From Frankia alni (GTDB lineage Bacteria > Actinomycetota > Actinomycetes > Frankiales > Frankiaceae): a DNA stretch of 32,293 nt. Under the pieces are notes generated by a model. The model made no database searches, was not told the DNA's origin, and saw only the letters and a program-made list of their open reading frames with translations. Positions 10,870-30,601 of this stretch are shown here, piece after piece (within the stretch, counting starts at the first letter, position 1; the number at the start of each line of letters is the position of its first letter). The position numbers and the translations under genes were made by a program. The stretch is from the NCBI GenBank assembly GCA_026225295.1, contig JAMFSN010000016.1:1-32293 (forward strand), read 5' to 3'.

Positions 10870-11046
10870 GGGCTGGTGGCCTAGGTGGGCTGTTGGATCG
10901 GGGATCGTGGTGTGGCGCAGCGGTTGCGCCTACGCCGCAACACAGTCGGGCACTGCGCCGCTACCGTCTGTACCGAGGCGCAGAGTGGGCAGAATTCGCT
11001 GACGTTGGTGCGTCGGCGCGACATCGTTCTGGAGGCTAGACATATC

Positions 11047-12360
11047 GTGGAGACACCGAAGAAGCGGCACATTGAGCCGGCCACCGGCCGGTTGGGAGTT
11101 CTGACAGTAGGCCTCGGCGCGGTCGCGTCGACCGCGATCGCCGGCGTCGAACTGATCAAGCGTGGTCTCGCGGAGCCTATCGGTTCGCTCAGCCAAATGG
11201 GAACCATTCGCCTCGGAGAGCGAACCGAGGGCCGAGCGCCCCTCATCCGCGACTTGGTGCCTCTGGCCGGCCTCGACCAGTTGGTCTTCGGCGCCTGGGA
11301 TCCAATCTCGGATACGGCCTACGAATCTGCGTTGAAGTGCGGAGTGCTCGATCGGCACGAACATATCGAGCCGATTGCGGCCGCGCTCAAGGAGATCGAG
11401 CCCATGCCGGCCGTCTTCGATCAGAACTACGTTCGGCGGCTCGACGGCAGCAATGTCAAGTCCAAGGCGACCAAGCGAGAGCTTGCGGAAGCCGTGCGCG
11501 AGGACATCCGCAACTTCAAGGTGAAGCATTCCTGCGACCGGTTGGTCGTGATCTGGTGCGCATCCACCGAGATCCTCATCGAGCCTGGCTCGGTCCACGA
11601 GAGCATCGACGCGCTCGAAGCCGCGATGGACGTGAACGACGTGAACATTCCGCCGTCGGTGATTTACGCGTACGCGGCTCTCAAGGAGGGCGTGCCGTTC
11701 ATCAATGGGTCGCCCAATCTCGCTACTGACGTGCCGGCGATGACGCAACTCGCCGAGCAGGCTGGCGTGCCCATCTGTGGCAAGGACTTCAAGTCCGGAC
11801 AGACCTTGCTGAAGACCGTGCTGGCGCCGATGTTGAAGGCGCGCATGTTGGGGCTCCGGGGCTGGTATTCGACCAACATTCTCGGCAATCGTGACGGTGA
11901 GGTACTGGAGGACCCGGACAGCTTCCGCAGCAAGGAGGTGACGAAACTCGGCGTGCTCGAGAACATTCTGCAGCCGGGCCTCTATCCCGAGCTCTACGGC
12001 CACTTCGACCACAAGGTGTGTATCAACTACTACCCGCCGCGCGGTGACAACAAGGAGGGCTGGGACAACATCGACATCTTCGGTTGGCTCGGCTATCCGA
12101 TGCAGATCAAGGTCGATTTCCTGTGTCGTGACTCGATCTTGGCCGCACCCTTGATGCTTGACCTGGTGCTTTTTACGGACTTGGCTCAGCGCGCGGGACT
12201 CGTAGGTATCCAAGAGTGGCTATCGTTCTACTTTAAGGGCCCGCAGCACGCTCCCGACGTCAATCCCGAGCATGATCTGTTCATTCAGCAGACCAAGCTG
12301 AAGAACACGCTCCGCTGGCTGATGGGCGAGGAACAGGTCACCCACCTGGACCTGGAATAA
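11047..12360 (+). CDS. ino1: myo-Inositol-3-phosphate synthase, long (Bacteroidetes/eukaryote-like) type
   Basis: A 437-aa NAD-dependent isomerase that converts glucose 6-phosphate to 1D-myo-inositol 3-phosphate, the entry to phosphatidylinositol and mycothiol. The dinucleotide-binding loop is VGLGAVAST (residues 21-29), the catalytic region is GKDFKSGQT (about 245), then NILGNRDGE (about 277), a RGDNKEGWDNIDIFGWLG block (about 331-348) and CRDSILAAP. From memory these blocks match the ~430-aa Bacteroides-like form, not the ~360-aa enzyme usual in Mycobacterium and Streptomyces. Start: GTG at 11047 with GGAGG 11 bases upstream; the open frame extends to 10885 but that part is unconserved. Its codon use is slightly less GC-extreme than that of its neighbours. 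A shared palindrome ties it to the PadR gene at 13501. Confidence 0.93.
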   Translation: METPKKRHIEPATGRLGVLTVGLGAVASTAIAGVELIKRGLAEPIGSLSQMGTIRLGERTEGRAPLIRDLVPLAGLDQLVFGAWDPISDTAYESALKCGVLDRHEHIEPIAAALKEIEPMPAVFDQNYVRRLDGSNVKSKATKRELAEAVREDIRNFKVKHSCDRLVVIWCASTEILIEPGSVHESIDALEAAMDVNDVNIPPSVIYAYAALKEGVPFINGSPNLATDVPAMTQLAEQAGVPICGKDFKSGQTLLKTVLAPMLKARMLGLRGWYSTNILGNRDGEVLEDPDSFRSKEVTKLGVLENILQPGLYPELYGHFDHKVCINYYPPRGDNKEGWDNIDIFGWLGYPMQIKVDFLCRDSILAAPLMLDLVLFTDLAQRAGLVGIQEWLSFYFKGPQHAPDVNPEHDLFIQQTKLKNTLRWLMGEEQVTHLDLE

Positions 12361-17941: not shown

Positions 17942-18619
17942 TTAGGCGGGGAGCGCCACGGATCGAGCGGGCTCGACACAGGCCCGGTAGGGCTTCAGGG
18001 TCGCGTTCAGCCAGGCCAGGCCGGCCGGCTCGGCGAAGTCCACCGGTTGGTAGCCGGCCGGGACGAGCGGACGGGGCCCCGGCCCGAGTCGGTCGGCGAA
18101 CAGCACCACGGCCTCGTTCGGGCGGTCCCGCCGCGACTGCCACACCAGCCCGGCGGCGGCCGGGTCCTCGCGACGGAGCCGATGGGCCCACCGACGGGTC
18201 CGCCCATACTCCGGTTCGTCGGCCTGGACGAGCCAGTCGTCCTGGTAGACCGCCGCCAGGTCGGTCGCGCTCACCAGCGTGATCAGACGCAGCTCACGGG
18301 TCGTCTCCAGCGCCGAAAGCACCCGGTCCCGCACGCTGGACCGTTCGATCATCCGCCGCTGCCCACCGCCGAACTGCCGTCCGCGCAGGAGGCGCTCGGC
18401 GACCGCGGTCGACCGCTGGACGGCAGCGTAGAGATAGGGATAGGGATCGTCCGGCGTGCCGTCGAACCGACCTCCACCGAAATGGCGGTCGGCGGCTGTC
18501 GGATTGAACTCGCACGGTCCGTATTGCCGGTGGTGGATGCGCCAGAGCACCGTACCGGCCGGCAGAAGCGTCGCGCGCGGTGGCGACTCGAAGACTTTCG
18601 GCGGAGCCTCACCCGGCAT
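17942..18619 (-). CDS. RES-domain toxin (NAD+-degrading type)
   Basis: A 225-aa RES-domain protein. It shows the family's spaced residues: Arg27 in LWRIHHRQYG, the NP pair at 39-40, Arg51 in GGGRFDGT, tyrosines in YPYLYAA (60-66) and Glu75 in TAVAERLL. RES toxins such as Mycobacterium MbcT break down NAD+ and arrest growth. The start ATG lies two bases after the stop of the antitoxin gene, so translation is coupled. A hairpin follows. Because the conserved residues are present I expect it to be active; the sequence alone does not prove toxicity. Confidence 0.85.
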   Translation of the reverse strand: MPGEAPPKVFESPPRATLLPAGTVLWRIHHRQYGPCEFNPTAADRHFGGGRFDGTPDDPYPYLYAAVQRSTAVAERLLRGRQFGGGQRRMIERSSVRDRVLSALETTRELRLITLVSATDLAAVYQDDWLVQADEPEYGRTRRWAHRLRREDPAAAGLVWQSRRDRPNEAVVLFADRLGPGPRPLVPAGYQPVDFAEPAGLAWLNATLKPYRACVEPARSVALPA

Positions 18620-18621
18620 GT

Positions 18622-18951
18622 TCAGTCCACATCCAGGTCGGCCCGGGCAGCGGCCACGAGTTCGCCGTCCGGGACCCGGCCGATCAGCTCGGCGGCCACG
18701 CCCCCGAGCCAGGCGTTGCGATCCAGCCACCACGACGCCACGCCCCACGGATCGTCGTCCGCCCCCAGCTCGCGGTTGACCTCGACGACCACCGGGTGAG
18801 GACGGCCGGATCCGTCGAACTGGAATGCGGGCAGGGTCACGGAACCGTGCTGATCGACGAACCGGATGAGTCCGGGCGCGGCCGGATCCTGACCGGCCGC
18901 CCGCAACCACTCCGCGGACCGTCCTGGTGCGGTGGACAGATCCCGCCGCAC
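18622..18951 (-). CDS. Antitoxin of the Xre/MbcA/ParS toxin-binding type, without obvious HTH
   Basis: A 109-aa protein. LPAFQFDGSGRPHPVVVEVN, then DPWGVASWWLDRNAWLGG and PDGELVAAARADLD match the C-terminal toxin-binding domain of antitoxins that pair with RES toxins. That domain covers nearly the whole protein: the N-terminal 30 residues (STAPGRSAEWLRAAGQDP) are too short for the usual HTH. DNA binding may therefore be done by another protein, perhaps the upstream gene product. The GTG start directly follows the TAG of that gene. Confidence 0.75.
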   Translation of the reverse strand: MRRDLSTAPGRSAEWLRAAGQDPAAPGLIRFVDQHGSVTLPAFQFDGSGRPHPVVVEVNRELGADDDPWGVASWWLDRNAWLGGVAAELIGRVPDGELVAAARADLDVD

Positions 18952-19335
18952 CTACGTGAGGACCGAGGGCGGAGCCGGGTTCAGCTCGACGGCCTGCTCG
19001 GTACGGGCCAGCTCGGTCCGGAAGGTCGCGACGGCCGCGTCGAGCTCCGCGCCCCGGCCGGGCCCGGGGCGCCGACCGCCGCCCCCGTGGCCACCATCCG
19101 CCGACCCGTCCGACGGCGGCGCGAGCGCCATGGCTCGCTGGACGGGATGGTCCGGGGGCAGCCGTTCGGTCAGGAAGATCACCAGGCGCAGAGCCCGGGC
19201 CGGGCGCGACACCGGATCAGCCTCGGCCAGATCCCGCAGGAGCGCCTCGAAACGCGGCCATTGCCCCGCGCCGAGCAGGGCGGCGATCTCCCGCAGATGT
19301 GGACCGACCTGGCGGACCGCGTCGTCGACCGCCAT
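18952..19335 (-). CDS. Unknown first gene of the RES toxin-antitoxin operon
   Basis: A 127-aa protein (ATG 19335; a GTG at 19338 directly precedes it). Residues 1-68 are predicted helical (HLREIAALLGAGQWPRFEAL, RALRLVIFLTERL). A Gly/Arg-rich, probably disordered linker follows, then a short helix (DAAVATFRTELARTEQAVEL). I do not recognise the family. It is the promoter-proximal gene, and its stop codon abuts the antitoxin start, so it is co-expressed with the toxin pair. It could be a DNA-binding or chaperone-like third component; this is inference. A tandem 14-bp repeat lies immediately upstream. Confidence 0.6.
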   Translation of the reverse strand: MAVDDAVRQVGPHLREIAALLGAGQWPRFEALLRDLAEADPVSRPARALRLVIFLTERLPPDHPVQRAMALAPPSDGSADGGHGGGGRRPGPGRGAELDAAVATFRTELARTEQAVELNPAPPSVLT

Positions 19336-19339
19336 CACT

Positions 19340-19367
19340 GAATCACCGTCATCGAATCGCCGTCATT
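19340..19367. promoter_or_regulatory. Tandem 14-bp repeats at the RES operon start
   Basis: GAATCACCGTCATC (19340-19353) is followed directly by GAATCGCCGTCATT (19354-19367), 12 of 14 bases alike. They sit just before the first start codon of the operon, as expected for an autoregulatory operator. Confidence 0.6.
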
Positions 19368-25022: not shown

Positions 25023-25806
<784 letters not shown>

Positions 25807-26551: not shown

Positions 26552-27134
26552 CTAGTGTCGCGTGAATGAAGTTGTCTTACTTTGGGGTTTCGGGGTGACG
26601 TGGGGTAGGAGGTCGTCGGCGGTCTTGGTCCAGATGAAACGTGATCCGGGGGTTACGGGCCAGCCAGGCGCGGACGGCGGGGTGTTTGTGGGTGGCGTAG
26701 TTGTCGACCACGATGTGCAGCGTGACGCGGGGGTTGGCTTTCGCGACCTGTTTGAGGAGTCGGAGGAACTCCTGGTTGCGGTGGCGGGGGTACCACTGTC
26801 CCTGGATCTGGCCGGTGGCCACGGTGAGGGCGGCGAACAGCGTCGTCGTGCCGTGCCGGACGTAGTCGTGGGTGGCCTTCTCCGGCAGACCGGGCCGCAT
26901 CGGGAAGATCGGCGCCGTCCGGTCCAAGGCTTGGACTTGGGATTTTTCATCGATCGAGAGGACGACGGCGTTCTCGGGCGGGTTCAGATAGAGCCCGACA
27001 ACGTCGCGGATCTTCGCCTCCAGGGCGGGGTCGGTGGAGAACTTGAACGTCTCCCGGCGCCAGGGCTGCAGCCCGAACCGGCGCCACACCTTCGCCACCG
27101 TCACCAGGCTCGCCTCGCGGCGGCCCCGAGTCAC
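26552..27134 (-). mobile_element. IS630-family transposase relic, N-terminally truncated and core-deleted
   Basis: The minus strand encodes TVAKVWRRFGLQPWRRETFK, then LYLNPPENAVVLSIDEKSQV with the first catalytic Asp, then HGTTTLFAALTVATGQIQGQ and VVDNYATHKHPAVRAWLARN with the second Asp. Right after NPRITFH the sequence jumps, in another frame, to the true C-terminus WTKTADDLLPHVTPKPQS ending at 26552. The third acidic residue and about 80-100 residues are missing. The N-terminal HTH half is also gone. CTAGTGTCGCGTGAATGAAG at the right border could be the surviving terminal repeat with its TA target. No left terminal repeat was found near 27134-27180. The element cannot transpose by itself. 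Confidence 0.88.
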
Positions 27135-28667: not shown

Positions 28668-29113
28668 TCAGTTGACGTCGAACTCGTTGCCCCCCGGGTC
28701 TTTCATCGCGACCGCGTAGTGGTCGAGGCTCTCCGTACTCAGGACCGCGACGAGGTGTGCGTCGAGGCCGGCCAGCCGGGCGCCCCCTCCGCGTCGACGC
28801 GCTGCCGGCGGGTCTCGATCGGCACCGCGCGGCCGCCACCGGCCCCGATATCGAGGTGCAGCCGGTTCTTGACCGCTTTGTGCTCCGGGACCACCTGGAA
28901 CCAGATCCGCGGGCCCCGCCCGTCGGGATCGACGATGCAGTCCGTGCCAGCGCCCAACTCGTCCTCGGGTACCCCGAGGTCTCGCCAGTAGGCATCCCAA
29001 CTGGCGGAGCCGGCGGGAGGCTGTTCAAGCTCGTATCCCAGCGCGGCGGCCCAGAAGCGCGCGAGCGGTTAAGGGTCGGCGCAATCGATCACCAGCTGGA
29101 AGCTCGCGGCCAT
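28668..29113 (-). pseudogene. VOC-family gene with an in-frame stop and a frameshift
   Basis: The ATG at 29113, after GAGGAGAG, opens MAASFQLVIDCADP and is then cut by TAA (codon 15). The same frame continues as PLARFWAAALGYELEQPPAG, GTDCIVDPDGRGPRIWFQVV and LHLDIGAGGGRAVPIETRRQ. After RVDAE the homology moves to another frame (RLAGLDAHLVAVLSTESLDH) and ends YAVAMKDPGGNEFDVN at 28668. The family match is clear across both lesions, so the ancestral protein was about 145 aa. The TAA replaces a codon in a conserved loop. Two independent lesions make sequencing error less likely. Confidence 0.85.
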
Positions 29114-29212: not shown

Positions 29213-30514
29213 TTACTGCATGGCGAGGAAGTGGAGTACCTGGGTGTGGGCCTCACCGTTCGCCGCCGCGTCGGCCGCGATCGTGCCGCCGAAGTCTGTG
29301 GCCTCTCGGGTGGCGGTGGTCACCGTGCTGGTGGTGATGGGGAAGTAGCCGGCGGCCCCGCCGACGCTGTGACCGGCGGCCGGGTAGCTCAGCGCGACAT
29401 CGGTGAACGGTACGTGGTGAGCGGTCCGGCGGGTGGTGATGGCCTGGGCGAACCGACACGACGACCACAGGTTGTCCTGGCCTCCGCAGATCGTCACGAC
29501 GGGACCGTTGATCTGTTCGACCGGGATGACCGAGTCCGGCGCGTCGGGCACGGCTACGCCGTGCTGGGTCCAGGCCGGTTGGTCGCTGTCGGGGTATCCC
29601 CCGGAGACGTGGTTGGACGGTGAACCGGCGATCACACCGTGGACCAGGTGGGGGTAGTCGGCGCCGAGCGGCAGCGCGGCCTCGCTGCCGTGGGAGGTGC
29701 CCCAGACCAGCACATGGGCCGGGTCGACACTGGGCTGCCGGGCCAGCAGGGTCGCGGCCCGGGCGAAGTACTCCAGCGGAATTGCTCGCAGGGTCGACGG
29801 GAGACCCGGTTCGTCGAAGTAGGCCAGCGCGAGGGTCGGGTAGCCGTGGGCGGTCAGGCTTCGGGCGAGGAACGCCGTAGACAGGCCGCCTTCCGAACCG
29901 CCGATGACGAGGACGGCGGGCCGGCGGACGGTGGTGCGGGCGGGTAGGTAGAGGTCACCGTAGATCCCCGTCGTGGCGGGCCGTTCATCGTGCTCGACCA
30001 GCCCGGCGGTGTCCGGGGTGTGGCGCACCACGGTCGTGGCGGCGACCGCCGCACCGGCGACGACGGCGCGCAGGGTCACCGTGGCCCCATGGGTGGAGAA
30101 GATGAAGGAGCTGGCCGTGGTGGGCCGGGCCGGGGTCATCAGGTCGAACAGACCCATCGGGTCGACCCCGCGATAGCTGCCCCCCGACGAGGGGTCCGCC
30201 AGCGTCACAACCCCGGCCCGGTTCGCGGTGAACTGGGCGTGGGCGGACCACTGCACACCGTAGGCGTCGACCGCCTGCGCGGTAACGGTCGTCTCCGCAC
30301 CTGGAGATAGGCCGCTGACCGTAGCGGCCACCGGCACGTCAAACAGCGCGGTCGAGGGAACCACGGTGATCGTCGGATGTGACCGCTAGCGCCCCGTGGA
30401 CCCACAGCCCACCACCGCGAGGATCACCACCAGCAGCAGCGATCCGACGGCCGGAAGGCTCCGGGTCCGGATCGGACCCGGCCTCCGACGGCTGGTTGGG
30501 CCGGGAGTTTCCAT
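29213..30514 (-). pseudogene. Lipoprotein-type acyl-CoA thioesterase/BAAT hydrolase interrupted by an amber codon
   Basis: The ATG at 30514, after GGATGGGGG, encodes a basic start, a hydrophobic stretch (LPAVGSLLLVVILAVVG) and the lipobox VVGC with Cys37. Codon 43 is TAG (30386-30388). The same frame then continues without change into a BAAT N-terminal beta domain (TALFDVPVAATVSGLSPG) and an alpha/beta hydrolase with nucleophile motif GTSHGS, GGQDNLW (Asp) and AAGHSVGG (His). Internal initiation at GTG 30364 could make a cytoplasmic 383-aa protein, but it lacks a ribosome binding site. The intact gene would make an envelope-anchored thioesterase-like hydrolase. Confidence 0.8.
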
Positions 30515-30601
30515 TGCCCCCATCCAACCGGTGAACGACCCGGCCGGCGGCCGGGTCGACGACCTCGTTACCGCGCCGAAATGCCTTACCCACCACGCCG
30601 G

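Follow-up and report, generated by a model that had tools for sequence, protein, structure and literature searches.

An amber codon between a lipoprotein signal peptide and its BAAT-type hydrolase in Frankia alni, probably a recent nonsense mutation

Layout of the interrupted reading frame

The window, that is, the whole stretch of 32,293 nucleotides of Frankia alni DNA that was analyzed, carries on its minus strand a lipoprotein signal and a 390-codon hydrolase of the BAAT/acyl-CoA thioesterase type in one reading frame, split only by a TAG codon at positions 30386 to 30388. Conceptual translation of 29213-30514 on this strand gives METPGPTSRRRPGPIRTRSLPAVGSLLLVVILAVVGCGSTGR, a stop, and then RSHPTITVV and so on to a TAA at 29213-29215. 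The TAG (30388-30386) is the sole internal stop in this translation, which reproduces the original prediction of a lipobox signal (ATG 30514, Cys37) that shares the frame of the hydrolase and is separated from it by nothing but this codon. The signal peptide segment (30389 to 30514), recognized from the translation and from homologues, consists of an n-region with Arg, a hydrophobic core (SLLLVVILAVVGC), and the lipobox VVGC, whose Cys is codon 37 counted from ATG 30514, followed by five linker codons. An alternative in-frame ATG for the signal is located at 30523, and further upstream the frame is free of stops as far as the TAG at 30604-30602 that terminates an intact flavodoxin-fold oxidoreductase-type gene (PF02525; 30602 to 31303, same strand). 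The amber codon is the sixth after the lipobox Cys, and the first start that follows it is an internal GTG (30362 to 30364), 21 bases past the stop, which corresponds to residue 8 of the hydrolase body. Of two features expected in a bacterial lipoprotein, a signal peptide with a lipobox ending in Cys is found ahead of the TAG (as a match to a relaxed lipobox pattern), and a single unbroken frame for the signal and the mature protein is missing, as the TAG intervenes.

The hydrolase body (29213 to 30385, ending in the TAA) contains the Bile_Hydr_Trans (PF04775; 66.7 bits, cut-off 27) and BAAT_C (PF08840; 72.6 bits, cut-off 20.9) domains, both exceeding the curated cut-offs, and its sequence matches those of human ACOT4 (3k2i; 5.8e-30) and ACOT2 (3hlk; 2.6e-25). 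Ser231, Asp304, and His339, which we take to be the nucleophile, the Asp, and the His of the catalytic triad, are invariant in all 26 aligned sequences, the window's copy included. The window's body keeps all 23 invariant columns of this alignment, of which it is itself a member, and departs from the consensus at 10 of the 71 strongly conserved columns, the fifth highest count of the 26, which is within the range of the open copies and gives no clear sign of relaxed selection. Such conservation implies that the lesion is recent, that some of the protein is still made, or that the TAG is an error. An AlphaFold2 model of the body, built with the 26 sequences as input, is confident (mean pLDDT of 88.4) and has residues 5-9 as its first predicted beta-strand. 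Apart from the TAG, the body is open over its 390 codons and retains its codon bias, with a GC content of 0.69/0.57/0.87 at the three codon positions, and the signal stretch at 30389-30457 is similar (0.78/0.52/0.87). The enzyme is a BAAT/type-I acyl-CoA thioesterase-like alpha/beta hydrolase, its activity being predicted from sequence. Like the BAAT and type-I acyl-CoA thioesterases (PF04775 plus PF08840, as in ACOT4 and ACOT2), it has both domains and the Ser/Asp/His triad; in contrast to them, it adds a bacterial lipoprotein signal, as do most of its actinomycete relatives, and the in-frame TAG.

The signal peptide and its loss in homologues

The homologue set comprised 80 loci, 73 of which align at the N-terminus (all but L161, L164, L167, L169, L171, L172, and L175), with the phylum of each homologue taken from the record titles; the set of 82 N-terminal regions used in some of the counts below double-counts three loci (L113/L019, L117/L018, and L139/L021). 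The lipobox patterns were drawn from background knowledge of the motif or devised for the present analysis. With the relaxed pattern, an in-frame lipobox was detected in 42 of the 48 homologues from Actinomycetota and in 1 of the 25 from other phyla. Six Actinomycetota fall outside the pattern: L109, in which a lipobox is visible by eye; L121 and L122, which have a hydrophobic N-terminus without a Cys; L123, whose start is unclear; L141, whose signal lies in a different frame; and L165, where no signal was seen. The distance from the Cys to the first body residue ranges from 2 to 29 in the homologues, with a median of 6, and is 6 in the window if the TAG is counted. This arrangement is not due to chance, since the homologues have the signal at the same distance and the relaxed pattern matches only about 0.3% (325 of 106,128) of random stop-free stretches of equal length from the window. 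A stricter pattern recovered only 37 of the 82 N-terminal regions because it misses evident lipoboxes; it matched 339 of 105,504 random stop-free 42-codon stretches of the window, again ∼0.3%.

To judge from these comparisons, one ancestral lipoprotein gene comprised both the signal peptide and the hydrolase. Orthologues lacking the signal peptide had been named in advance as grounds for abandoning the original prediction, and the lipobox counts in Actinomycetota point the other way. Its claim that the export signal would be overlooked if the gene were annotated from the internal GTG gains support as well, since the signal and the hydrolase make up a single ancestral gene. If the gene were called from GTG 30364, it would be classed as a cytoplasmic thioesterase, even though in Actinomycetota the family consists mostly of surface lipoproteins. 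The BAAT lipoproteins of other actinomycetes, such as Embleya scabrispora (L096), Kitasatospora (L097), Paractinoplanes (L100), and Streptomyces sp. NBC_00715 (L045), have a similar lipobox spacing and are at most 47% identical to the window's copy over the whole body; they run open from the signal to the body, whereas the window's copy is broken by the TAG. These proteins seem to be little studied: a literature search, judged by title, returned no paper on the present gene or on actinomycete BAAT lipoproteins, and we know of no extracellular substrate assigned to them.

No in-frame stop between the lipobox and the body was found in any of the 73 homologues with an aligned N-terminus. Moreover, 74 of the 82 homologues are open in one frame across most of the query (from residue 20 or less to residue 340 or more), so the frame of the window is disrupted where those of its relatives are open. 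Of the remaining eight, L020 and L141 are split between frames, and in the other six the alignment breaks off at residues 316-323 without a stop. In the taxonomic family to which the window belongs, a match was detected in 2 of 35 genomes, namely, the window's own genome and that of a member of another genus, G028; a first search of the genome contigs with a single protein as the query gave no match. The G028 copy is a multi-lesion pseudogene, spread over several frames and missing residues from about 169 to 336. The L020 copy is interrupted by a stop and a change of frame, and in L141, which comes from a Streptosporangiaceae metagenome genome, the signal and the hydrolase lie in different frames (around 2400-2510) and the frame changes once more within the body (2947-2962). 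The BAAT lipoprotein family is thus one that is easily lost.

Decoding of the TAG and initiation at the internal GTG

TAG terminates 11 of the 26 open reading frames listed for the window (not all 26 of which are certainly genes), including the gene just upstream of the signal. Among the 54 tRNAs of the genome (53 Rfam matches and 1 detected by ARAGORN), none has the UAG-reading anticodon CUA; the genome is estimated to be 97.55% complete, which would allow for one missed tRNA. A change of the genetic code that makes TAG a sense codon was rejected on these two grounds. The RNA around the stop (30290-30415) has a folding z-score of -0.25, with 75 of 200 shuffles folding at least as well, and a stimulatory structure at the stop was therefore also rejected.

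In-frame stops are widespread in bacterial genes, and many of the sequences that contain them hold dN/dS below 1, according to PMC7918605. That paper takes as evidence a stop that is common to two or more species; the present stop was found in no relative and falls outside that definition. It resembles the nonsense pseudogenes and other in-frame stops of bacteria described there in being a single in-frame stop within a conserved coding frame, and it differs from them in its location exactly in the linker between an export signal and an enzyme. Readthrough of the TAG, either programmed or at a low level, would yield a small amount of full-length lipoprotein and would be consistent with the intact body and with the low dN/dS of many such sequences. 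However, neither a stop conserved in relatives (0 of 73 homologues, all of them from outside the window's own species) nor a decoding tRNA or stimulatory structure was found, RNA at the stop folds like its shuffled versions, and TAG serves as an ordinary terminator in the window, all of which makes readthrough very improbable.

Another possibility is that the TAG closes a short leader and that ribosomes reinitiate at GTG 30364, producing a cytoplasmic hydrolase that lacks the signal. The triad and the remaining frame are intact, which is compatible with such reinitiation as well as with an assembly error (see below). The GTG is in frame a mere 21 bases behind the stop and has nearly the whole body downstream, and the Bile_Hydr_Trans profile begins past it. 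Besides, the homologues L130, L137, and L170, all from outside Actinomycetota, have few residues ahead of the body, which suggests that the family includes an unexported form. Still, such a localization switch is unlikely, given that the anti-Shine-Dalgarno pairing at this GTG is weak (-2.7 kcal/mol, with a background median of -3.7; ATG 30514 has -7.8 but at a short spacing), that a start at body residue 8 would fall inside the first predicted beta-strand of the AlphaFold2 model (residues 5-9) and cut it, and that the arrangement was seen in none of the relatives found. In a combined scheme, the stop would be kept as an address switch: reinitiation at GTG 30364 would deliver most of the product as a cytoplasmic hydrolase, occasional readthrough would supply an anchored form, and one gene would serve two compartments. 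Such a scheme appears extremely improbable. Under that scheme, the Streptosporangiaceae copy L141, in which a frame change within the same linker separates the signal from the body, might represent a second case of uncoupling, a conjecture that we hold to be just as faint.

Gene decay around the locus

The next gene on the strand encodes a glyoxalase-family protein (PF18029; 28668 to 29113, minus strand) and is also broken: it has an internal TAA (29069-29071) at a position occupied by a sense codon in a relative, and its frame shifts further on. Open relatives of this gene were found in three other genomes, with 88%, 80%, and 71% identity, the 88% one being from another family of the class. 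Farther along on the minus strand, the pyruvate phosphate dikinase N-terminal domain (PF01326) is represented by a remnant (25470 to 25755), two short pieces in two frames with most of the domain lost, and a 185-aa piece of a DDE_3 transposase (26577 to 27134, minus strand) lies between this remnant and a glutathione S-transferase-type gene. Inverted repeats revealed no clear insertion-sequence ends, and in the four regions compared, the relatives' copies were not flanked by the neighboring genes of the window. Other genes here appear whole by their Pfam matches, and in many of them the frame stays open across nearly the entire domain.

The genome, probably assembled from a metagenome, is a draft in 412 contigs whose contamination is estimated at 4.01%, and the TAG could be an assembly or sequencing error that conceals a sense codon in an ordinary lipoprotein hydrolase. 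The otherwise intact body would fit such an error, as would the two lesions in the well-conserved glyoxalase-family neighbor, which are of the kind that a locally poor consensus would produce. Given that a lone substitution is not a typical assembly error, that base errors would not remove most of the pyruvate phosphate dikinase domain, and that so many of the window's genes show no break across nearly complete domains, we assign this explanation a small, though not negligible, probability.

A recent nonsense mutation that inactivated a surface lipoprotein hydrolase is probably the best reading of the locus, with the TAG known from one genome. The absence of the TAG in the 73 homologues, the broken neighbors, the broken copies in relatives, and the lack of a CUA tRNA all point to a young pseudogene. 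In its ancestral state, the gene would have encoded an ordinary actinomycete surface lipoprotein, exported and lipidated on Cys37, with the hydrolase outside the membrane. The TAG would then have arisen by a recent nonsense substitution in the non-conserved linker, at the sixth codon past the Cys, and translation from ATG 30514 (or 30523) would now end for the most part in a lipidated stub, with anchored enzyme made in small amounts if at all, leaving a young pseudogene within a patch of decaying neighbors. That the organism truly carries the TAG, and that this stop is recent and inactivates the gene, is our inference. The original prediction had left the choice between a recent nonsense mutation and programmed readthrough; the former fits best, and the latter is disfavored by the search for a UAG-reading tRNA, the RNA fold, the homologues, and the broken neighbors. 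The gene was likely switched off by a recent mutation, like its neighbor, which makes it an ordinary dying gene rather than an example of a new decoding trick.

Elsewhere in the window, the flavodoxin-type protein has no close relative among the 58 genomes searched, and the myo-inositol-1-phosphate synthase (10885-12360, plus strand) is unlike the copies of relatives, the best match in 58 genomes being 43%. On the minus strand, at 17942-19362, an open reading frame for a RES-domain protein is preceded directly upstream on the strand by a 136-codon open frame, and the two could form a RES-type toxin-antitoxin pair.
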